32,001 nucleotides of DNA from an uncultured Armatimonadota bacterium. GTDB taxonomy: Bacteria; Armatimonadota; Fimbriimonadia; Fimbriimonadales; Fimbriimonadaceae. This document shows, in pieces, positions 2,164-17,374 of this stretch. The position numbers and the translations under genes are program-made. The notes under the pieces were generated by a model. That model was not told the DNA's origin and made no database searches. It was given only the letters and a program-made list of their open reading frames with translations. Every line of letters starts with the position of its first letter. The stretch's first letter is position 1. The DNA lies in assembly GCA_937862825.1 (NCBI GenBank), contig CALMEF010000053.1, positions 1-32,001 of the forward strand, written 5' to 3'.

Positions 2164-2844
2164 ATGTCCGGTGATATGGCATCTGAGGAGTTGAAGTCCA
2201 CCTTTCTGTTTGCCAAAGTGGATGCTCTCGGCATTTCACATTTGGCGCAGGCATGCAGATTTCGTCGCGTTGCTGCGGGTCAACCCATCGTGGTGGAGGG
2301 GGAGCCAGGCAACACGATGTTTATCATTCTCAGCGGTCGAGTCGAGGTTACGCGAACCGATCCTGCTGGAAACGTCCTACATCTTGCTGATCGCGAAGAT
2401 GGCGAGTCCTTCGGAGAAATGACTCTGATTGATGGTGCACCCCGATCCGCAACTGTTCGAGCCCTGGAAACCTGTCGGTTACTGGTACTTGACCGATCTG
2501 ATGTGTTAGCGGCGATAGAGCGCTACCCATCCATCGGGATTGCCATGCTGGAAGTCCTCTCCGTGAGATTGCGAGAAGCCGACGCTCGGCAAATGGGCCG
2601 CAGTTCCGTTCGGGAGCGCTTAGTAAATTTCCTTCGGCAGGAGTGCGAGATTCAAACTGGCTCCGAACTTGAGCGAGGTGCCTCAATCACACTCCGCTCG
2701 AACAGAAACGATATCGGAATGCGAATCGGCGCTACCCGCGAGAGCGTGTCCCGAGAGTTTGCTGCCCTAGCCAGGGCCGGTGCTCTTCAAGTGTCAGGCA
2801 AGAACATTGTTGTGCTGAGTACACGAAAACTGATTGCACAATGA
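2164..2844 (+). CDS. Crp/Fnr-family cyclic-nucleotide-responsive transcription regulator
   Basis: This 226-residue protein has the usual length and layout of Crp. An N-terminal cNMP-binding beta-roll (about 25-135) contains GEPGNTMFIILSGRVEV and the phosphate-binding cassette FGEMTLIDGAPRSATV. It keeps the Glu and Arg-Ser that contact the cyclic nucleotide in true cAMP receptors. A dimerisation helix follows, then an HTH_Crp domain (about 150-220) with the recognition helix in IGATRESVSREFAAL. There are no clustered N-terminal cysteines of the Fnr kind. GGAGA stands just before the ATG at 2164; a second in-frame ATG at 2176 has no better site. Its stop overlaps the start of the next gene (ATGA, 2841-2844), so it is probably translated together with the cyclase that could make its ligand. 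Confidence 0.92.
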   Translation: MSGDMASEELKSTFLFAKVDALGISHLAQACRFRRVAAGQPIVVEGEPGNTMFIILSGRVEVTRTDPAGNVLHLADREDGESFGEMTLIDGAPRSATVRALETCRLLVLDRSDVLAAIERYPSIGIAMLEVLSVRLREADARQMGRSSVRERLVNFLRQECEIQTGSELERGASITLRSNRNDIGMRIGATRESVSREFAALARAGALQVSGKNIVVLSTRKLIAQ

Positions 2845-4586
2845 GGTATCTCGTTTTCCTTTTCACGGATATTGAAGGGAGCACAAGGCTGTGGGAGACC
2901 TTCCCTCAGGATATGTATGAAGTCTTGAGGAAGCACGATCGAGTCGTGCGGAATGCGATAACCGCAAAGGGCGGTCAAGTATTTCGAACGGTCGGAGATG
3001 CATTCTACGCAACCTTTGAGAAGGCGGCGGATGCATTTCTGGCTGCTATCGATATTCAGGTAGCCCTAAGTACCGAAGATTGGGCACCCGTAGGCCAGGT
3101 TAGGGTGCGGATCGGAATCCACGCAGGTGAAGCCGAACCGAGAGACGGTGACTACTACGGCCCAGAGTTGAATCGAGTTCATCGTCTGCTCTCTGCAGGT
3201 CACGGCGGTCAAATTTTGTGTTCATCGTCCGTAGCCAACCACGCTGTTCACGGAGTCTCTCTTCAAGACCTTGGTGTTCACCGCCTGAAAGATCTGAGCG
3301 CTCCCTTCCAGGTGTATCAGCTCGTTCACGAGAGTTTGCCGTCGGAGTTTCCTCGGCTTAGAACATTGGATCCAGTTCGGACGAACCTCCCTCATCAACC
3401 GACCTCCTTTGTTGGCAGAACCAGAGAACTGGAAGAACTGACAACTCTCGTTCAGAGACAGCGGCTCGTAACGCTCTGTGGAGCAGGAGGGTGTGGCAAG
3501 ACTCGCTTAGCGTACCAAACTGCCTCGGAGCTCTTGGATGAGTTCGACGGCATCTGGGTTGGGGAACTCGCGTCACTGACCCCGTATTCGTCGCTCGCGT
3601 TCAGCCTGGCTCATGCTTTAGGGGAGAATGTAGGACTTGGTGAGGACCCGGACGATCGGGTCATTGCGTCTCTGGCCGACTCCCACTCCTTGATCATCCT
3701 CGACAACTGCGAGCATCTCCTGGATTCGGTTGCAAGCCTAGTCTGGAGATTGCTTTCTGAGTGTCCAACTGTCCATGTTTTGGTAACTAGCAGGGAACCT
3801 CTGAGCATTCCGGCTGAAACCGTGATGAGAGTCCCTTCCCTCGAAGCATCGTCCGATGGAGTGGCGCTCTTTTTCGAAAGGTCTGGTTGCGATGAGTCTC
3901 ATCGGGCCGCGGCGGAAAGGATTGTTGAACGACTTGACGGGATTCCCCTTGCGATCGAGTTGGCAGCCGCTAGAACTGCTTTTCAATCGCCAGAGGAGAT
4001 TCTTGAGGGACTTGAGGATCGATTTGCGCTACTGACCTCAGGGAACCGGGGCGCGTTGCCGCGGCATCGGACGCTGTACGAATCAATCAACTGGAGTTAC
4101 CAACTACTCTCAGACGAGGAGCGGGATGCGTTGCAGCAGTTTGCCACCTTTGCCGATGGCGCCGAAGTCGAACTCGTCGCTGCATTGATGGGTAGATCGG
4201 TTTCGTCGACAAGAATCCTATTGACCGGACTATGTGAGAAATCGTTTATGTTCCGTCAGGAGGGGCGATACCGACTTCTAGAATCCGTTGCGGCTTTTGG
4301 ACTCAAAGCGCTTGAGGACTGCGGGCGCGAGGGCGAGACTCTCTCGCGATGCGCAAGCGTGCTGACAGACCGCGCTCTCCATCTGGAAATGATGGCCAAG
4401 ACTGAGCAATCCGCGGCCTTGGATTTAATGGATCGAGAACTTCCCAATTTCCGGAGGGCATTTGCGCACCTGGCAATCGACCAAGCACTTCGACTCGCTA
4501 GTAGCCTAAGCCTCCTGTGGGAGTTCAGAGGACATTGGCGCGCAGGCTCTGCTCGTGCTTGGCACGTTGTGTCGACGCTTGGGTGA
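2841..4586 (+). CDS. Class III nucleotide cyclase fused to STAND/NB-ARC ATPase (C-terminally broken)
   Basis: Residues 1-160 form a class III cyclase domain. The metal-binding aspartates are visible in FTDIEGST and TVGDAF, and the transition-state Asn and Arg in GPELNRVHRL. The usual substrate-selecting Lys is Arg (VFRTVGD) and the usual Asp is Pro (YYGPELN), so ATP specificity is not certain. Residues about 185-480 form a STAND/NB-ARC ATPase: Walker A GAGGCGKT, Walker B LIILDNCEHLLD, sensor LVTSREPL and the GIPLAIELAAAR motif. The protein then enters the helical linker that precedes TPRs in this family and stops at 581 residues, where the TPR part should begin. The TPRs continue in another frame (from 4555). 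The start is the ATG shared with the crp stop. Expected role: cytoplasmic sensor-cyclase making a cyclic nucleotide on ligand binding. Confidence 0.9.
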   Translation: MRYLVFLFTDIEGSTRLWETFPQDMYEVLRKHDRVVRNAITAKGGQVFRTVGDAFYATFEKAADAFLAAIDIQVALSTEDWAPVGQVRVRIGIHAGEAEPRDGDYYGPELNRVHRLLSAGHGGQILCSSSVANHAVHGVSLQDLGVHRLKDLSAPFQVYQLVHESLPSEFPRLRTLDPVRTNLPHQPTSFVGRTRELEELTTLVQRQRLVTLCGAGGCGKTRLAYQTASELLDEFDGIWVGELASLTPYSSLAFSLAHALGENVGLGEDPDDRVIASLADSHSLIILDNCEHLLDSVASLVWRLLSECPTVHVLVTSREPLSIPAETVMRVPSLEASSDGVALFFERSGCDESHRAAAERIVERLDGIPLAIELAAARTAFQSPEEILEGLEDRFALLTSGNRGALPRHRTLYESINWSYQLLSDEERDALQQFATFADGAEVELVAALMGRSVSSTRILLTGLCEKSFMFRQEGRYRLLESVAAFGLKALEDCGREGETLSRCASVLTDRALHLEMMAKTEQSAALDLMDRELPNFRRAFAHLAIDQALRLASSLSLLWEFRGHWRAGSARAWHVVSTLG

Positions 4587-5517
4587 TTTTGAGACCGCCC
4601 GGACAAGAACGAAAGAAGCCTATCTGATTTTCAAAGAACTTGCGAATCCTCAGGGTCTTGGCGATTCTGCGAATACCCTTGGCGGAGTTGCTTGGGCTCA
4701 AGGTGACTTCGCGCTCGCAGCAACCTGGTACGAAGAGGCGTTGCGAACACGACGGGCAATGAAGGATGCTCTCGGCACTGCAGTGTCAACCCATAACCTC
4801 GGCGTTGTGCAACTTGAGTTTGGCAACTACGAGGTGGCAAAGAGTCTCTTGAGAGAAAGCCTCACATTGGCGAGGGAAGTTCACGACGATGTGCTCGTTA
4901 GCATGGCACTGAACAATTTGGGGAACACATATTCCGAGTCGGGTGAACTTGAAGAGGCACTGGACGCGTATCAACAGTCCCATGAGTGGGCACGCCGGTT
5001 GAACGATAATCAGGGGATCGCCTCTGCGGAAAACAACCTTGCCATTGTTTTGGGGCATCTGGGTCGGCACGAAGATGCTGTTCGGCACTTCATGAACGCC
5101 TTGGGTGAGTTTAAACGCTTGGGGGACCTGCGTGCCATGAGTGCGACGATGTCGTCGGCAAGCGACTCGCTCGTTCTTACCGGGCGACGGCAGGAAGCGC
5201 TCGAACTCATCAGTGAAGCACGAAAACTCCATTCAACCTTTACCGATCCGCGTGGAGTTTGCTATCTCCTCGAAGCATGCGCAGATATCAGTGCTATTGA
5301 AGGAGAGATTGAGACTGCGAGAATCCTCCTTGGAGTCTCCGAGGCCTACCGCAAGCAAATCGGCCACCCGATGCCAAAACGGGATCAAGAGCGAAGGCGG
5401 GCAATCTCTAACCGAACGTCTAGCAACACAGAACGATCCCCTGGATATTGGGTCGACTCGGCTGCGCTCTCATTGGTTGATAACTGGCTAACCAATCGGT
5501 ACACTCCGCAGCCATGA
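4555..5517 (+). CDS. TPR protein, probably the detached C-terminal sensor part of the cyclase-STAND protein
   Basis: The 320-residue frame begins at a GTG overlapping the end of the upstream gene by 32 bases and is almost entirely tetratricopeptide repeats (for example DFALAATWYEEALRTRRAM and NLGNTYSESGELEEALDAY). Such repeats form the ligand-sensing C-terminus of cyclase-STAND proteins. There is no Shine-Dalgarno before the GTG, and the same frame reads on upstream as good family sequence (AQALLVLGTLCRRLGDFE). The simplest reading is therefore a frameshift, perhaps with a small deletion, rather than a separate gene. If translated on its own it would depend on coupling. Its stop overlaps the next start (ATGA, 5514-5517), so the operon continues. 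Confidence 0.75.
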   Translation: MLGTLCRRLGDFETARTRTKEAYLIFKELANPQGLGDSANTLGGVAWAQGDFALAATWYEEALRTRRAMKDALGTAVSTHNLGVVQLEFGNYEVAKSLLRESLTLAREVHDDVLVSMALNNLGNTYSESGELEEALDAYQQSHEWARRLNDNQGIASAENNLAIVLGHLGRHEDAVRHFMNALGEFKRLGDLRAMSATMSSASDSLVLTGRRQEALELISEARKLHSTFTDPRGVCYLLEACADISAIEGEIETARILLGVSEAYRKQIGHPMPKRDQERRRAISNRTSSNTERSPGYWVDSAALSLVDNWLTNRYTPQP

Positions 5518-6338
5518 AGGAGCAGGTTCACAGGTTCATCGAACAGACAAAGCAGTCTATTCAGAGTGGGCAACTCCTGGAGGCAATGGATTTGATCGAT
5601 CAGGCCATTGCCCTTGAACCAGGCAACTCGGAAGCCCATGGGTTACGTGGAATCATCCTGTCGCAGCTCCAGCGTCCAGCGGAAGCAACAGAAAGCCTTA
5701 GGAGGGCGGTAGAACTCAATCCGGCATCATCCAAGGCGCACTTCAACTTCGCCGTGCACCTCTTCTCGATCGGAGATCGTGCCAAAGCAACTACTGCCGT
5801 CCGGGAGGCGGTGAGGTTGGAGCCGTCGAACGCTGCTGCCAACGAACTCTTGGCCCAACTCCAACCCCCTGAGAAGGCGGCGCCGACCACTATAAATGCG
5901 GTCCCCCAAATAGGACCCCCGCCGATTCATACGTACGCATATCGCCCTGGGTACGAGGCGCCAGTTCATAGCATGCAGTTCGTCGAGCGGCTGGGCACTA
6001 CCTGGACAATCCTTGGCTGGGTCAGCGTCGCATGCGGTGCCGTCGGATTCATCCTTGGGCTGGTGGGGAGCGTGGACATGATGTCGGCAATTCTGGAGAA
6101 TGAAGGAAACTTCGATTCGATTGCCGACATGCTGTCGAATCAGAACTCGCCAACGGCTTTGCTGGCGAACCTCCTTCTCATGATCACGGGCATTTTTGGG
6201 TGGGTGTGGTCCATCATGGACATCACTGATCGACGAGCCAACTGGGTCTGGGCAGTCCCCATGGTTTTGTGTTGCTGCGCCCAAATGCACTGGCTAGCGA
6301 TGGCAATTTATATCCTGGTTGGCAGGAAACCTTCGTAA
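5514..6338 (+). CDS. TPR protein with three C-terminal membrane segments
   Basis: This 274-residue protein has about three TPR units at residues 5-118, with typical AHGLRGIILSQLQRPAEA and SKAHFNFAVHLFSIGDRA periods. A Pro-rich linker (118-150) follows. Hydrophobic segments lie at about 162-187, 214-236 and 243-268. The last contains an unusual CCC cluster (MVLCCCAQMHW). There is no N-terminal signal peptide, so the TPRs are expected in the cytoplasm, tethered to the membrane. The start is coupled to the previous gene by an ATGA overlap. It is the last gene of the cyclase operon, ending 91 bases before fliM. Its function is unknown; a membrane partner for the STAND-cyclase is a guess from position. 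Confidence 0.87.
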   Translation: MKEQVHRFIEQTKQSIQSGQLLEAMDLIDQAIALEPGNSEAHGLRGIILSQLQRPAEATESLRRAVELNPASSKAHFNFAVHLFSIGDRAKATTAVREAVRLEPSNAAANELLAQLQPPEKAAPTTINAVPQIGPPPIHTYAYRPGYEAPVHSMQFVERLGTTWTILGWVSVACGAVGFILGLVGSVDMMSAILENEGNFDSIADMLSNQNSPTALLANLLLMITGIFGWVWSIMDITDRRANWVWAVPMVLCCCAQMHWLAMAIYILVGRKPS

Positions 6339-6383: not shown

Positions 6384-6429
6384 AAATACTGATGACGTGG
6401 ACTCCGTCCGCGATCTCAGAGGAAAGGCA

Positions 6430-7473
6430 TTGTCGGAAATCTTGTCCCAGGCTGAAATCGAAGCGCTTCTCAACTCTCTGAACTCAGAGGGAGACGTTCC
6501 TGCGCCAACGCCGACGGCTCCGCAGAGCGAACCCGGACGCACAGAACCGACAGCAGTCGAATCAAAGATTAATGTCAAGCGGAGAAGTGGGGCAGGTGGG
6601 AAGCAATACGAGGTCTACGACTTTCGTCGGCCGGACAAGTTAAGCAAGGAACAACTCCGAACCCTGCAAATGCTTCACGAGACCTTCGCAAGGCTTGCCG
6701 GATCAAGTCTTTCGGCTTACCTTCGATCTCCCGTAACGATTGATCTTATTAGCCTGGAGCAGGTCCCTTATGAGGAGTATCTGCGAAGCATCAACCAGTC
6801 GGTCTTCTCAGTTCTTTCGTTGCCACCACTGACCGGACAAGCCGTTCTCGAAATTGAGTTCGGACTCATATTCACGATGATCGATCGGTTGTTAGGTGGT
6901 CCCGGAAAGGCGATTTCTCGGACAAACCTGACCGATATTGAGCGCCCACTAGTCCGACAAACCGTTGAGCGGATGTTTGCCGCGCTGAAATCGGCTTGGG
7001 AGGGTGTCGTGATCGTAAATCCAAGTATTGAGGGCATGGAAACGAGCGCCCAGTTCGTCCAAATCGCGCCACCAAACGACATTGCAATCACGATCCTGTT
7101 TGAGGTGCGAGTAGGAGGCCAGCGCGGTGCCATGAGCCTCTGCATTCCTTATCTGGTTCTCAAGCCGATTACCACGAAACTCAGCGCTCAAAAGTGGTTC
7201 GTTAACAGCAGTAGAAGAACCAGTGCAGTTTCGAAGAGGCAGATCTCTGCCCAACTCGGTCAAAGCGCCATAGATTGCTCTATCCGACTTGGCAATGCCC
7301 GCTTGAGCGTACAAGATTTCCTTGACCTTGAAAAGGGCGACATTCTGAGGCTTGATCAGAAGACCACCCGCGACGTGCCACTTCTCGTGGGCAACGTGCC
7401 CAAGTTCGCTGGAAGGCCAGCACTGCAAGACAACAAGATCGTTTTCTCCGTTTCCCATATGATCCAGGAATAA
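6430..7473 (+). CDS. fliM: Flagellar motor switch protein FliM
   Basis: FliM is the middle ring of the flagellar C-ring and binds phosphorylated CheY to switch rotation. I place the start at the TTG at 6430: it gives MSEILSQAEIEALLNSL, the conserved FliM N-terminus that includes the CheY-binding EIEALL motif, and has a strong ribosome site (GAGGAAAGG) just upstream. A GTG at 6397 would add 11 unconserved residues. The 347-residue product has the CheC-like middle domain (from about 50, YDFRRPDKLSKEQLRTLQ, with GGPG near 160) and a C-terminal SpoA/FliN-like domain (about 275-345). It is the first gene of the fliM-to-flhB run; fliL is not adjacent. Confidence 0.95.
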   Translation: MSEILSQAEIEALLNSLNSEGDVPAPTPTAPQSEPGRTEPTAVESKINVKRRSGAGGKQYEVYDFRRPDKLSKEQLRTLQMLHETFARLAGSSLSAYLRSPVTIDLISLEQVPYEEYLRSINQSVFSVLSLPPLTGQAVLEIEFGLIFTMIDRLLGGPGKAISRTNLTDIERPLVRQTVERMFAALKSAWEGVVIVNPSIEGMETSAQFVQIAPPNDIAITILFEVRVGGQRGAMSLCIPYLVLKPITTKLSAQKWFVNSSRRTSAVSKRQISAQLGQSAIDCSIRLGNARLSVQDFLDLEKGDILRLDQKTTRDVPLLVGNVPKFAGRPALQDNKIVFSVSHMIQE

Positions 7474-11776: not shown

Positions 11777-14521
11777 TTACTCGGCGAGCCAGGACAGTTC
11801 GTCGATAACCGAGAGCCAGCCATCTTGGGCAGGATCCTCATCATTGATGGGGAACCACGTAATCCTGGTTTTCACCTCGCCCATAGCAGAGATGAAGCGA
11901 CCAGTATTGCCGACTCTTTCGATGACAACACTAGACTCGGCGGTCTGAGCAACGCGCCCATCCACCAAGACCCATGCATTGGCATCGAAGTCGAACCACT
12001 CTATGTTGATTGACATGCCCTTACGCTCAATGTAACTCTCGAGGACCATTCGCAGAACATCTGTAGGCTCTGTCATTCCACCAGCGGTAGCGATGACTTG
12101 GGTAGCCATCGTCTCTGGATCATTGAAGATGCAGATGCACTCGTTATCGCTGATCAAGAGGTCTTCAAGATCACCATGAAGCAACTCGCCTTGGATGATC
12201 TCAAAGGAGTAAGGCCTGCCAGAGATTCGATCAACCGGGCAAGGAATCTCCACGTCGCCAAGATACATCTTGTCCTGAGTTCCGAAGATCAGGTTGATGT
12301 CCATGAAGACGTTACTCGGAGCACTGCCACCGTCAATCGGAAATCCGACGATACCGTAGACATTTCCGTTGAGTTGGTAATCAGCGGTCCACCAGATTCG
12401 TCGCCCAAGTGCTGGCATACCACCGGCGCATTGAACGCTGTAATCGTAGTCAAGGCCTCCCGCTGTGGAGGTATTGATGCGGAACACGTCTTGCCCAACG
12501 TATGCCGTATTTGCGTCGGGGCCAGTCCATAGCGTCCATTGCCCATCTCTACAACGAAACTCCAACGCTCGCGATTGGTGAGCGTAGGCGGAAGTATCGT
12601 TGTACATAGACTTCTCAGCAACACCCATTCGACCTTCCGGCGAGAATGAGATGTCGGAGACAGGACTACTGAACGAGTTCAGGTAAGTTGGCATAGTGAC
12701 CTCAAGCTGGTCAGTTGCCGGGAGAAACGCACCAGTATTGTCGATGGCGACAGACCGAATAACGTTGTCAGCGGCACCGTTTGGACGCGCGGAGTCCTCA
12801 ACCCAAACGCTGTAGTAAACGCGTCCGGCATGGTACTCAACGCCCCAAAGACGTTCGCCAAGGGGTGCAAACCCTGCTAGCCCATCATCTGGGAGAAGGG
12901 GATCAAAAGCCTGTGCAGCAACCCAGTTGCCGGCCATGTCAACCCGATAGATTTTGCCGTCCTCGTGATTGGTCACAAAGAGTTGGTTATGATCGTAATC
13001 GAACGTAATGTTTCCAAGACCCGGGAATGAGTCTGGACCGCCGGTATTGGGAAGAGCAGTGTTGGTGAGCAGTTGCGGAATTCCGCTACCGTTCGGGATC
13101 TTGTAGATCGCGCCACCACGCGTTCCGCCGCCAAGGACACCAACCGATCCTGCCTGGTCAGCCCAGTACATGGAAGAGTAGGTGACGTAAACATTGGCTT
13201 GGTTATCAATGGTGATTCCGAAGATCGTGCCAAGATCCTGTTTTTGCCAGCCAGCGCCGGGGCCAGTATAGGAATACGGGTTTTGGGCACTCCAGTTCGT
13301 ACCGAGAGCAGGCGGCGTGCATTGATAGCCGCTGAGGTTCATCATGTGGAGCACGATTCCGCTTCCACCAGGCAGCGCGTCTGTTGTGACGAATGCTGCC
13401 GATTGGAAGTTTGCTCCGCCGCCACCTGCAGGATCACCATCGTAAACGGGCATCCTTGCTGCGCAGACTCCTGGCGTCTCGTGGCAACCGCCGCACTGCG
13501 GCAAGTCAATACAATGCCTAACACTGCAACACGACTGGAAGTTGCGATCAGCGAGGCCGATAAAGAAGCAATAGGGTCGTCCACCCGCAGTCTGCGGGAT
13601 GGTGAAACTGCCGCAGTAAATCTGACCGTAAAGAAGCGGGGATCCAAGGGCGATAAAGTTCGGAGTCATCTGAACGTCGTTGTCCGGCGCCAGAAGGATG
13701 TAGTAAACGGGGGTTGGCTGCAGATTTTGGAAGCAGAAGTTATAGGTAAACGTTCCGTCCGCGTTGCAGATGACCTCTTCTTCGGTGAATTGTAGGCAGT
13801 CGCATCGGGGGAGTTCGATGCAGGCTGAAGAGGGACAACACAGGGCTAAGTTGTAGGAATGTGCAGTGAGATTTATGCAGATCTCGGTGCCTGGTTGACC
13901 ACCACAAACTTTGAGTGTAAATGTTTGGGAACCACCCGGCGGAATTGCTGGGTTGATCGGCAAATAGTTCGGCTGATTGGTGTTGTTTGCCTGAACGGTA
14001 ACTCCAAGCGGTGGCTGGAAGAAGATATGTGCGATCGGATAAGGTGCATAGTTGTGGATCGTTACCGTCCACCAATAGCAACCTGGTTGATCCGGAATGC
14101 ATAGTACTCTCTTGGTCTCAAACTTGACGCAGGGCTTTCCAATCCCAATGGTCCCGTTACCGTTGGTTCCGGGGCCAACCTCGATTAAGACAAGACCACC
14201 TCGGCCAGGCTGGGTGAGGTCGTAGCCGTTGGGAACATCGGGAGTTACCGCATAGGTTCCCGGAGCCAGGTTGTCCTTGACAGCACGACCATTCGATCCC
14301 GTTCGCATTTCGAACGTGATGAACGGCTCAGCGACATTAAAGGCACGGAGCCCAAGATCCGGAAAACCCGGTTCGCCTGGATCCTGGGTGCCGTTAATGT
14401 TAAGATCGTCGTAGGCATCAACGGTCATCACCCCTGGTTGGGCAAAGGCCATTGAGGCGACCAATAGAAATAGAGCGGTGGCGAGCCAACGACCCAACCC
14501 CACCTTCCAAATGGAAATCAT
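11777..14521 (-). CDS. Secreted cysteine-rich multidomain protein (SdrD-like module plus propeller-like region)
   Basis: The start is the ATG at 14521, preceded by GAGGAGG eight bases upstream; it gives a signal peptide (MISIWKVGLGRWLATALFLL, then VASMAFAQ). A longer frame to 14575 would place that ribosome site inside the gene. The mature 914-residue precursor begins with an SdrD B-like module (about 30-125: AYDDLNINGTQDPGEPGFPD, then LAPGTYAVTPDVP). Two or three Cys-rich beta modules follow (about 130-380, with LPRCDC and LPQCGGC). Next is a region at roughly 390-760 with repeated FGITIDNQANVYVTY- and LGNITFDYDHNQLFVTNHE-type strands, suggesting a beta-propeller, and finally a ~130-residue beta domain ending at LSWLAE. 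No sortase, PEP-CTERM or Por-type tail is obvious. Extracellular or surface location is inferred; activity is unknown. Confidence 0.88.
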   Translation of the reverse strand: MISIWKVGLGRWLATALFLLVASMAFAQPGVMTVDAYDDLNINGTQDPGEPGFPDLGLRAFNVAEPFITFEMRTGSNGRAVKDNLAPGTYAVTPDVPNGYDLTQPGRGGLVLIEVGPGTNGNGTIGIGKPCVKFETKRVLCIPDQPGCYWWTVTIHNYAPYPIAHIFFQPPLGVTVQANNTNQPNYLPINPAIPPGGSQTFTLKVCGGQPGTEICINLTAHSYNLALCCPSSACIELPRCDCLQFTEEEVICNADGTFTYNFCFQNLQPTPVYYILLAPDNDVQMTPNFIALGSPLLYGQIYCGSFTIPQTAGGRPYCFFIGLADRNFQSCCSVRHCIDLPQCGGCHETPGVCAARMPVYDGDPAGGGGANFQSAAFVTTDALPGGSGIVLHMMNLSGYQCTPPALGTNWSAQNPYSYTGPGAGWQKQDLGTIFGITIDNQANVYVTYSSMYWADQAGSVGVLGGGTRGGAIYKIPNGSGIPQLLTNTALPNTGGPDSFPGLGNITFDYDHNQLFVTNHEDGKIYRVDMAGNWVAAQAFDPLLPDDGLAGFAPLGERLWGVEYHAGRVYYSVWVEDSARPNGAADNVIRSVAIDNTGAFLPATDQLEVTMPTYLNSFSSPVSDISFSPEGRMGVAEKSMYNDTSAYAHQSRALEFRCRDGQWTLWTGPDANTAYVGQDVFRINTSTAGGLDYDYSVQCAGGMPALGRRIWWTADYQLNGNVYGIVGFPIDGGSAPSNVFMDINLIFGTQDKMYLGDVEIPCPVDRISGRPYSFEIIQGELLHGDLEDLLISDNECICIFNDPETMATQVIATAGGMTEPTDVLRMVLESYIERKGMSINIEWFDFDANAWVLVDGRVAQTAESSVVIERVGNTGRFISAMGEVKTRITWFPINDEDPAQDGWLSVIDELSWLAE

Positions 14522-14587
14522 ATTCAAACCCTCCTCAAGTACAAGAGAATAAATCTCTAAACCGTATCTTAACATGATTTCCCACGC

Positions 14588-15080: not shown

Positions 15081-15755
15081 TTACTCCGTGGGTTCGGAAG
15101 CCTCGGTGGCTTCTTCGGTCGTGGCTTCGGCGGCGGGGGCCTCCTCTGCCTCAGCGGCTGGTTCTTCGGTTGCGGGGGCTTCCTCAACGACAGGGGCTTC
15201 TTCAACCGCAGGTGCTGCGGCTACAGGAGCAGGCGAACCTTCAGCGACCTTATCTGCAACTGCGCCAATGACCCGAATCGGATCGGCATACAGTGCTTCG
15301 ACAACGCCAACGAGGTTGCTAAGCGGCGCGGCAATAGCGCCGATAACCTGTGCGATGAGAACGTCCTTTGTGGGAAGTTTCGAGAGTGCCTCGACTTCCT
15401 TAGCGGACATCGCCCTACCACCAAAGAGACCGCCCTTAATGGCGAGTTTCTTGTTAGCGGTTGAGAAATCGACGAGGGCCTTGGTGCACTCCGATTCGTT
15501 GTCGAATACGAAGGCAACTGCGGTCGGCCCATTATGGAACTCATCTGGCAAGTTCGTAACGTCGTCACCAGCGGCTAGTCGGAAAAGGGTGTTCTTGAGA
15601 ACGTGGATTTCTCCGCCCTTGGCATGCAGTTTCTTTCGCAGATCCTGCATTTCCTTGACCTTCAGGCCGCGATAGTCGGTGAACACGACGCCGCGACTCT
15701 TGGAATAGAGTTCCTTGGCTTCTTCGATCACTCGCGCTTTTGCTGCGGTAGGCAT
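15081..15755 (-). CDS. rplJ: 50S ribosomal protein uL10
   Basis: uL10 anchors L7/L12 dimers on the ribosome. The start at 15755 (MPTAAKARVIEEAKELYSKS) aligns with known L10 N-termini and has GGAAGG nine bases upstream; the longer frame to 15842 lies in the leader RNA. The core includes VVFTDYRGLKVKEMQDLRKK and LKNTLFRLAAG. The 224-residue length exceeds typical L10 (about 165-175) because of a ~50-residue low-complexity Ala/Glu/Pro tail (repeated EEAP). This tail follows the helical segment that binds bL12. Confidence 0.97.
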   Translation of the reverse strand: MPTAAKARVIEEAKELYSKSRGVVFTDYRGLKVKEMQDLRKKLHAKGGEIHVLKNTLFRLAAGDDVTNLPDEFHNGPTAVAFVFDNESECTKALVDFSTANKKLAIKGGLFGGRAMSAKEVEALSKLPTKDVLIAQVIGAIAAPLSNLVGVVEALYADPIRVIGAVADKVAEGSPAPVAAAPAVEEAPVVEEAPATEEPAAEAEEAPAAEATTEEATEASEPTE

Positions 15756-15787
15756 GGTTTTTATGACCTTCCAGATCCAACCCTGTC

Positions 15788-15823
15788 CAAAACAAAAACG
15801 GCTTCTGCCAAAGCGACAGAAGC
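15788..15823 (-). promoter_or_regulatory. rplJ leader hairpin with U-run, candidate attenuator (L10 leader)
   Basis: In the untranslated leader of rplJ the minus strand reads GCTTCTGTC-GCTTT-GGCAGAAGC, a 9-base stem with one G-U pair, then CGTTTTTGTTTT. That is terminator-like but lies upstream of the coding region. L10 leaders, where the L10/L12 complex represses its own mRNA, are known at this position in many bacteria. The kink-turn part was not confirmed. Confidence 0.6.
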
Positions 15824-15926
15824 ACGAGGAGCATCGCTCCACAGTTCTTCAATTGTCACCTCGGCTGGCCGCCCATTTGGGCGTTTCGGGCACATTGTGC
15901 CACCGGCTGTCTCCGGATTAGGGCTG

Positions 15927-15935
15927 ATTCTACCA
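15927..15935 (-). promoter_or_regulatory. Candidate extended -10 promoter for rplJL
   Basis: The minus strand carries TGGTAGAAT, an extended -10 (TGn plus a 5/6 TATAAT match). No good -35 is found at 16-18 bases. Transcription would start near 15920, giving a leader of about 165 bases that includes the hairpin above. Confidence 0.4.
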
Positions 15936-15967
15936 CAAACCCGAGAATATGCCGACAATTACCAGGT

Positions 15968-17374
15968 ATGTCCCTACCACAACTTCCCTGGACCGGTGAG
16001 CGAATGGTTCCGCACGCATCAGATCTGGCAACAGAACTCTATCACTGGCAACGCTACCTCTTCTTCCGTCCATGGTACGAGCATGCCAAGGTGGTTGACG
16101 CGGCAAGCGGTGAGGGATATGGTTCCAACTATGCGTCGGTCTTTGCCCAAAGCGTCGTAGGAGTTGATCTGTGCGCACAATCGGTTGCTCACGGCAGTGA
16201 GCGATACCCCGAAGTCAAGTTTGTTCGAGGGGATGTGTGTGAGTTCGACTATTCATCTGCCGATCTCGTGATCTCCTTTGAGACCATTGAGCATCTGCCC
16301 GACCCAGAGGCGTTTCTGGGGGCATTGAGGTCGTGCTCGGGCCGAATCGTAATTTCAACCCCAAACAGAAAAACACACTCTCCCGGTAACGAAATTTCTG
16401 ACAAGCCATTGAATCAGTTCCATACGGTTGAATGGACGCCCCTGGAGTTTGCTGAGTTGATCCAGAAGCACTTTGGCGACCGGTCTGTACGATTTCTATC
16501 CCAACAAATGGAGTGGCCTGGGCGAATCGTGGAGGGTTTGGATGACGACGCCATGTATTGTATTGCCGTCATCGGAGACGGTGAGCTTCCCGTGTGGCCG
16601 ACTATTGGTCTGGCGATGCCTACGGTGGACAACCCGGGAATGGCAAACGACACGATCCTGAACTTGAGCCGCTTCTATCCCGGGCAACTCAAGTTCGCGG
16701 TGACCCTAAACGGTAGCAACGAGTCCACCAAGCAGAAGCTGCGCGATCTCTCAAAGGCGATGCCCTCCATGGTTCAACTCATTGAGTCAGAGACCAATCT
16801 GGGCTATGGGCAAGGGGCAAATCGCGCCTTGCACGTGCTGTTGAACGAGAATCTCGACTTCTACGGAGTGATTAATGACGACGTGGTACCTGCGGTGGAT
16901 TGTCTCAATGAGATGGTCAACGCAATGCTCCAACTGAGGAGCCAGGGATTGAATCCAGGCATGATTGGCCCGGTAAGTAACAACGTCAACGGCCTCCAGC
17001 AGGTAGACATTGGTGCCTTCAACGACATTCGGTCGATGCACTTTCGAGCAGAGACCTGGCACCGGCAACATCACAATTCTGCGGACCAGGCCATTCAGGT
17101 TCGAGGCCTGTTTCTTTTGATGACGCCGGAGTGCCTTGATGCAATTGGAGGGTTTGACCCAATCTTTGGTATCGGTAATTTCGAAGACGATGATCTAAAC
17201 CTGCGTTGCAGGTTGGCCGGATACTCACTTTGGATTGCTCGGGGCGCCTTTCTTTTTCACCACGGATCAAAAACGTTCACCGACCTGAAGGTCGATTACA
17301 GCGCGAACATCCAGCGCAATTTGCCAGGAAGTGGGGCCTTCAGCAGAGTGACGAATGGGTCTCTCTTGACGTGA
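15968..17374 (+). CDS. SAM methyltransferase / GT2 glycosyltransferase fusion (3' end frameshifted)
   Basis: Residues about 25-190 are a class I methyltransferase: motif I VVDAASGEGYGSNY, acidic strand VVGVDLCA, and SFETIEHLPDPEAFLGAL of the Methyltransf_11/23 type. Residues about 215-450 are a GT-A family 2 glycosyltransferase: FAVTLNGSNES, ETNLGYGQGANRAL, nucleotide-binding YGVINDDVVPA, acceptor-side IGGFDPIFGIGNFEDDDLNL and FHHGSKTF. Such fusions occur in surface polysaccharide or protein glycosylation; the acceptor is unknown. The frame ends after an unusual tail (PGSGAFSRVTNGSLLT), while the expected ending (FARKWG) continues in the -1 frame from 17320. It is divergent from rplJ. Confidence 0.9.
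   Translation: MSLPQLPWTGERMVPHASDLATELYHWQRYLFFRPWYEHAKVVDAASGEGYGSNYASVFAQSVVGVDLCAQSVAHGSERYPEVKFVRGDVCEFDYSSADLVISFETIEHLPDPEAFLGALRSCSGRIVISTPNRKTHSPGNEISDKPLNQFHTVEWTPLEFAELIQKHFGDRSVRFLSQQMEWPGRIVEGLDDDAMYCIAVIGDGELPVWPTIGLAMPTVDNPGMANDTILNLSRFYPGQLKFAVTLNGSNESTKQKLRDLSKAMPSMVQLIESETNLGYGQGANRALHVLLNENLDFYGVINDDVVPAVDCLNEMVNAMLQLRSQGLNPGMIGPVSNNVNGLQQVDIGAFNDIRSMHFRAETWHRQHHNSADQAIQVRGLFLLMTPECLDAIGGFDPIFGIGNFEDDDLNLRCRLAGYSLWIARGAFLFHHGSKTFTDLKVDYSANIQRNLPGSGAFSRVTNGSLLT

Follow-up and report, generated by a model that had tools for sequence, protein, structure and literature searches.

A rare crp and cyclase-STAND gene pair kept in two genera of Fimbriimonadaceae

The locus raises the question of whether a cyclic-nucleotide receptor and the cyclase gene that overlaps it form one signaling unit, and how far that unit extends into the neighboring genes. 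The window, meaning the whole 32,001-nucleotide stretch of DNA analyzed here, is an entire contig of a draft genome (3.4 Mb in 336 contigs, 94% complete), and its source was placed in Fimbriimonadaceae, Armatimonadota, by FliM searches. An earlier sequence-only reading of positions 2164–6338 had proposed a self-contained module in which a TPR sensor acts through an ATPase and a cyclase on a local Crp protein.

The Crp protein and the overlapping cyclase-STAND reading frame

The crp gene (2164–2844, + strand) encodes a Crp/Fnr-type regulator of 226 amino acids (Pfam cNMP_binding, 8e-24; HTH_Crp_2, 3e-11), for which the nearest solved structure is S. meliloti Clr (7pza, E=1e-24). Residues were tabulated against Clr and E. 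coli CAP, with the CAP sequence verified at the positions numbered here. The G-E...R-S phosphate-binding cassette is kept (G84, E85, R94, and S95), which bears out the intact cassette claimed by the sequence-only reading, and the recognition helix is RExxxR, the same as in CAP. At the positions of CAP T127/S128, the window Crp has A139/D140, as does the Crp of G066, a genome of another genus in the same family; neither protein carries the Thr/Ser of cAMP-type base recognition. Clr has Thr-Thr at these positions (PMC10127613), and the second is Asn in the cUMP-binding PycTIR and Glu in the cGMP-binding XC_0249 (PMC11224242). On these comparisons, a ligand other than cAMP is possible for this regulator. 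Autoregulation by Crp was considered and rejected, as no CRP-type palindrome lies upstream of or near the operon, and two-mismatch matches in the window number 3 against 14.5 expected.

The start codon of the next gene overlaps the crp stop codon as ATGA (2841–2844, + strand), as had been read from the sequence, and the same overlap is present in the G066 orthologue (L225 3521–3524). The reading frame spans 2841–4586, with its stop at 4586. Residues 1–172 form a class III nucleotidyl cyclase domain (2841–3356, +; Guanylate_cyc, 9e-12), followed by an NB-ARC/STAND ATPase and arm (3375–4538, +; NB-ARC, 2.7e-5; FxSxx_TPR, 2.5e-21 over residues 184–432). The STAND motifs are GAGGCGKTR (Walker A), LIILDN (Walker B), TSRE, and GIPLA; the NB-ARC profile scores 24.0 bits against a cut-off of 23.5, compared with 40.5 bits for the G066 protein. 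In a table of 55 related domains, the window cyclase retains the metal residues (D10 and D53) and the transition-state residues (N111 and R115) of class III enzymes. The second substrate residue, D104, is also kept, and the first is changed from Lys to Arg (R49); Lys occupies this position in 42 of the 55 domains and in two relatives of solved structure, 3mr7 and Ma1120. In class III cyclases, ATP is specified by a Lys together with an Asp (PMC4215837), of which only the Asp is found here, so that the domain lacks the full signature of an ATP-specific adenylate cyclase. XC_0250 is active despite replaced transition-state residues (PMC3770947), and divergent residues are therefore no proof of inactivity. 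The cyclase probably makes a cyclic nucleotide; with R49 and A139/D140 both off the ATP- and cAMP-specifying residues, cyclase activity and the Crp ligand are uncertain.

Conservation of the pair and its surroundings

Conservation of the crp-cyclase pair in relatives, by which the sequence-only reading had proposed to be judged, was found in G066, where the Crp gene is followed through its ATGA overlap by one continuous 877-residue cyclase-STAND-TPR reading frame; the G066 contig ends soon after the pair, and its neighbors are seen only that far downstream. The window and G066 proteins are sisters in the Crp tree (support 100/97, 34 rows) and in the cyclase-domain tree (99/94, 55 rows; in the latter tree the bootstrap had yet to converge completely and there are several long rows). 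The two trees agree in placing each partner in a clade of the window genome and G066. The best BLAST match of the cyclase domain is likewise in G066 (56%), and the pattern FRTVGDAFY occurs only in the window genome and G066 among 113 genomes. The STAND and arm parts are nearer to other paralogues than to G066, which fits fast change in those parts, yet is a weakness.

Cyclase-STAND(-TPR) proteins are common, with a match to the query in 38 of the 41 genomes searched, and a Crp match at E<=1e-20 was found in 20 of the 113 genomes of the order, the best being G066 (45% identity). The two genes are paired in 2/113 genomes of the order, and among 291 genomes of the phylum no further Crp at E<=1e-25 had a downstream STAND-cyclase within the fetched flanks. 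The expected number of chance adjacencies within 20 bp across the order is about 0.01, a rough value for which mean gene numbers were guessed. The crp-cyclase pair is rare but has been kept across two genera of the family.

Related Crp genes also adjoin other kinds of cyclase gene. G023, G053, and G007, which represent three genera, have a same-strand cyclase-like gene upstream of Crp that lacks the K, D, and N positions, and the cyclase-like genes and the Crp genes of these genomes each form clades. The loci of these three genera are L109 (3780–5764), L234 (12927–15026), and L047 (1468–2981); similarly, a divergent cyclase lies upstream of Crp in G120 and G121, from another family (L245 and L243). 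G064 also has a Crp of this clade, and 34 bp after its gene comes one for a class III cyclase of 309 residues that keeps the canonical catalytic residues but lacks a STAND domain (L228; G064:C1, about 1660900–1662600). G040 was rejected as a further example, the gene after its Crp encoding a histidine kinase. Cyclase and receptor genes have thus been paired repeatedly, and the STAND version is one form of this. Ala/Asp at the CAP T127/S128 positions is also found in the Crp proteins of G064, G086–G088, G040, and G056, none of which has an adjoining cyclase of the R49 type. Strict co-variation of R49 with A139/D140 was rejected on these grounds, and the non-cAMP ligand is therefore a lead, not a demonstration.

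Downstream, a second ATGA overlap, at 5514, does lead to a membrane TPR protein with three hydrophobic segments (5514–6338, + strand). Its orthologues adjoin a PDZ/aspartyl-protease gene in 6/6 loci examined (L123–L128), which is not so in the window; its placement here is therefore probably recent, and as a conserved part of the module the protein was rejected, its membership being improbable from gene order. The pair does lie upstream of a flagellar operon, whose first gene is fliM (6397–7473, +; TIGR01397, 1.2e-78; likely start TTG near 6432), but no crp-cyclase pair was found upstream of fliM in 47 fliM loci from other genomes, and a link to flagella was rejected. Adjacency to the membrane TPR gene and to the flagellar operon looks incidental. 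Elsewhere in the window, a 932-residue protein with an SdrD_B-like domain and no other family match is encoded directly after the flagellar genes (11777–14575, - strand), and a single reading frame at 15968–17374, overlapping the preceding one (15603–16160), fuses a methyltransferase domain to a family 2 glycosyltransferase.

A frame break between the STAND and TPR parts

Alignment to 10 relatives and G066 places a break at 4532–4586 (+ strand), where the frame is lost and an out-of-frame tail runs to the stop at 4586. A TPR sequence follows, as had been said; it is a MalT-like sensor part (TPR_12, 2e-36; TPR_MalT, 2.5e-10) that lies in the +1 frame and is open from ~4540 to a stop at 5517 (+ strand). 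Compared with the closest orthologue, the window is short of about 18 residues at this point, and other relatives carry 19–24 there. Three paralogues in the same genome encode cyclase, STAND, and TPR in a single reading frame (887, 897, and 789 residues, the last with a shorter TPR part), as do relatives in other genera, in which the protein has about 900 residues; the paralogues and the G066 orthologue together span about 790–900. The C-terminal sensor is accordingly in the same protein as the STAND domain in G066 and the three paralogues and is separated from it in the window. Since the TPR sequence lies in the +1 frame and no ribosome-binding site is visible for its start near 4540, inside the cyclase-STAND frame, we read it from the alignment as the broken continuation of the cyclase-STAND gene, the two being parts of one ancestral protein. 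The working TPR sensor that the sequence-only reading assumed for this organism belongs to a gene that is broken in the source genome.

The break is either a real deletion, in which case the cell recently lost a regulated enzyme, or an assembly error. We hold the chances to be about even that it is an artefact of the metagenome-assembled genome and that the protein is whole in the living organism. The TPR part is open for >300 codons with a coding-type base composition equal to that of the upstream part, and the draft is split into 336 contigs, both of which favor an artefact; against this, a search of the assembly found the junction a single time and no second, intact copy, and recurrent pseudogenization is documented for the Mclx cyclase-NB-ARC-LuxR genes (PMC4452763). 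That the parts are joined by programmed +1 frameshifting within 4510–4583, where both frames overlap, is hardly credible, because all relatives have 18–24 extra residues there in one frame, so that a shift would still leave the repeat gapped, and the gene is split in no relative.

A proposed circuit and its relation to known systems

In its intact form, the pair is, in our moderately confident assessment, a two-gene signaling operon of a STAND-gated cyclase and a co-translated Crp, for which we infer an inducer, an ATPase switch, catalysis, a ligand, and targets. An inducer would bind the C-terminal TPR sensor of the cyclase-STAND-TPR protein in a MalT-like switch, whereupon the ADP-bound NOD would open and take ATP, and the protein would oligomerize. 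Class III cyclases need to dimerize, and oligomerization would gather the N-terminal cyclase domains into the required dimer. The cyclic nucleotide product would bind the co-translated Crp, which would then bind DNA via its HTH, and the ATGA overlap may hold receptor and enzyme in proportion; in the source genome, the enzyme gene is interrupted between STAND and TPR. The STAND steps are modeled on MalT (PMC4381067). Counted in favor of the operon are the overlapping pair and continuous frame in G066, the concordant trees, the shared FRTVGDAFY signature, the retained metal and transition-state residues, the kept Crp cassette and RExxxR helix, and the repeated occurrence of related Crp genes beside cyclase genes. 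Counted against it are its rarity, the frame break, R49 with A139/D140, and the lack of a CRP-type palindrome.

The source genome encodes eight class III cyclases and four proteins with a cNMP domain, and with these numbers the self-contained module of the sequence-only reading loses its footing. Two of the four are Crp-like without the cassette Glu and Arg, and one has no HTH; among the four, only the window Crp was found to combine an HTH with an intact phosphate-binding cassette, and several cyclases may therefore act through it. The two Crp/Fnr-type proteins that lack the cassette Glu and Arg (G000:C153 7231–7470 and G000:C171 7699–7956) also have a recognition helix that reads V-E-x-x-x-R, its first Arg being lost.

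The window Crp could then be a general receptor fed by several cyclases, with the overlap serving only co-expression and no private circuit. We regard this as unlikely, though a serious contender: one protein with intact cassette and HTH faces eight class III cyclases, at least three of them STAND paralogues in which the canonical K and D are present, but the pair travels together between genera, A139/D140 may shut out cAMP, and contact between a cyclase and regulators, as in CyaC-CycR-Clr, is a route by which cAMP signaling can be made selective (PMC10463352). The opposite possibility, that cyclase and receptor share a private non-cAMP messenger (cGMP or a pyrimidine cNMP), is suggested because the Lys that specifies ATP is R49 here and the Thr/Ser that contact cAMP are A139/D140; we consider it improbable. 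If true, the canonical cyclases of the cell would not interfere with signaling from the STAND-gated enzyme to its Crp.

A defense role of the Pycsar or Avs type, in which STAND/TPR would sense phage, the cyclase would make an alarm signal, and Crp would respond, is very improbable and was rejected: STAND proteins act in anti-phage defense (PMC12931631), and PADLOC matched PycC, PycTIR, and TPR models, all via generic domains, but the locus has a DNA-binding HTH as its output where a TIR or membrane effector would be expected, and the neighbors are flagellar and metabolic genes with no defense genes recognized.

STAND-linked cyclases are numerous in Fimbriimonadaceae and known in actinobacteria, but few of their receptors and messengers have been identified. 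The conserved overlapping crp gene offers a candidate receptor for one of them, which makes input, messenger, and output testable in one operon, and the altered base-contact residues on both partners give a concrete prediction of how an eight-cyclase cell might separate its signals.

Among the systems closest to the enzyme are the Mclx proteins (Rv0386, Rv1358, and Rv2488c), which also fuse an N-terminal class III cyclase to an NB-ARC-type STAND domain; a genome again encodes several of them, the active site is altered in some, and pseudogenization is frequent (PMC4452763). Mclx proteins have the order class III cyclase, AAA/NB-ARC, LuxR, with DNA binding in the same protein, whereas here DNA binding falls to a second gene, the overlapping crp, and the C terminus consists of TPR sequence only; no HTH match was found in the cyclase-STAND part, the TPR part, or the intact G066 protein. 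MalT and the FxSxx-COOH TPR proteins share the succession of NB-ARC/STAND and TPR sensor (NF040586, 2.5e-21; TPR_MalT, 2.5e-10), but the effector of MalT is a LuxR HTH in place of an N-terminal cyclase.

For the pairing, RC1_3785-gcyB-gcyC-cgrA of Rhodospirillum centenum likewise encodes a Crp homologue with cyclase genes, and that homologue responds to the product cGMP; gcyB and gcyC are described as non-catalytic subunits, there is no STAND/TPR input, and the gene order is reversed relative to the window (PMC4681086). CgrA has a TGTGA-N6-TCACA site upstream of its cluster, whereas none was seen at the window operon. XC_0250/XC_0249 of Xanthomonas campestris are linked genes for a class III cyclase and a cNMP-domain receptor (PMC3770947, PMC11224242), and in XC_0249, too, the residue aligned with CAP S128 is acidic (PMC11224242), but this receptor acts through a GGDEF domain in place of an HTH. 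Pycsar (PycC with PycTIR or PycTM) again places a cyclase, in its case a pyrimidine cyclase, beside a cNMP receptor, but with TIR or membrane effectors and neither HTH nor STAND, whereas the window partner has an HTH and no TIR or membrane domain. CRP-like genes also stand beside AP-ATPase systems in conflict loci (PMC7159879). No description of an overlapping crp and cyclase-STAND-TPR gene combination was found in the literature searched; receptor-cyclase pairs (cgrA-gcyBC, XC_0249/XC_0250, and Pycsar) and cyclase-NB-ARC proteins (Mclx) are already known, and the window holds an unusual version of them.
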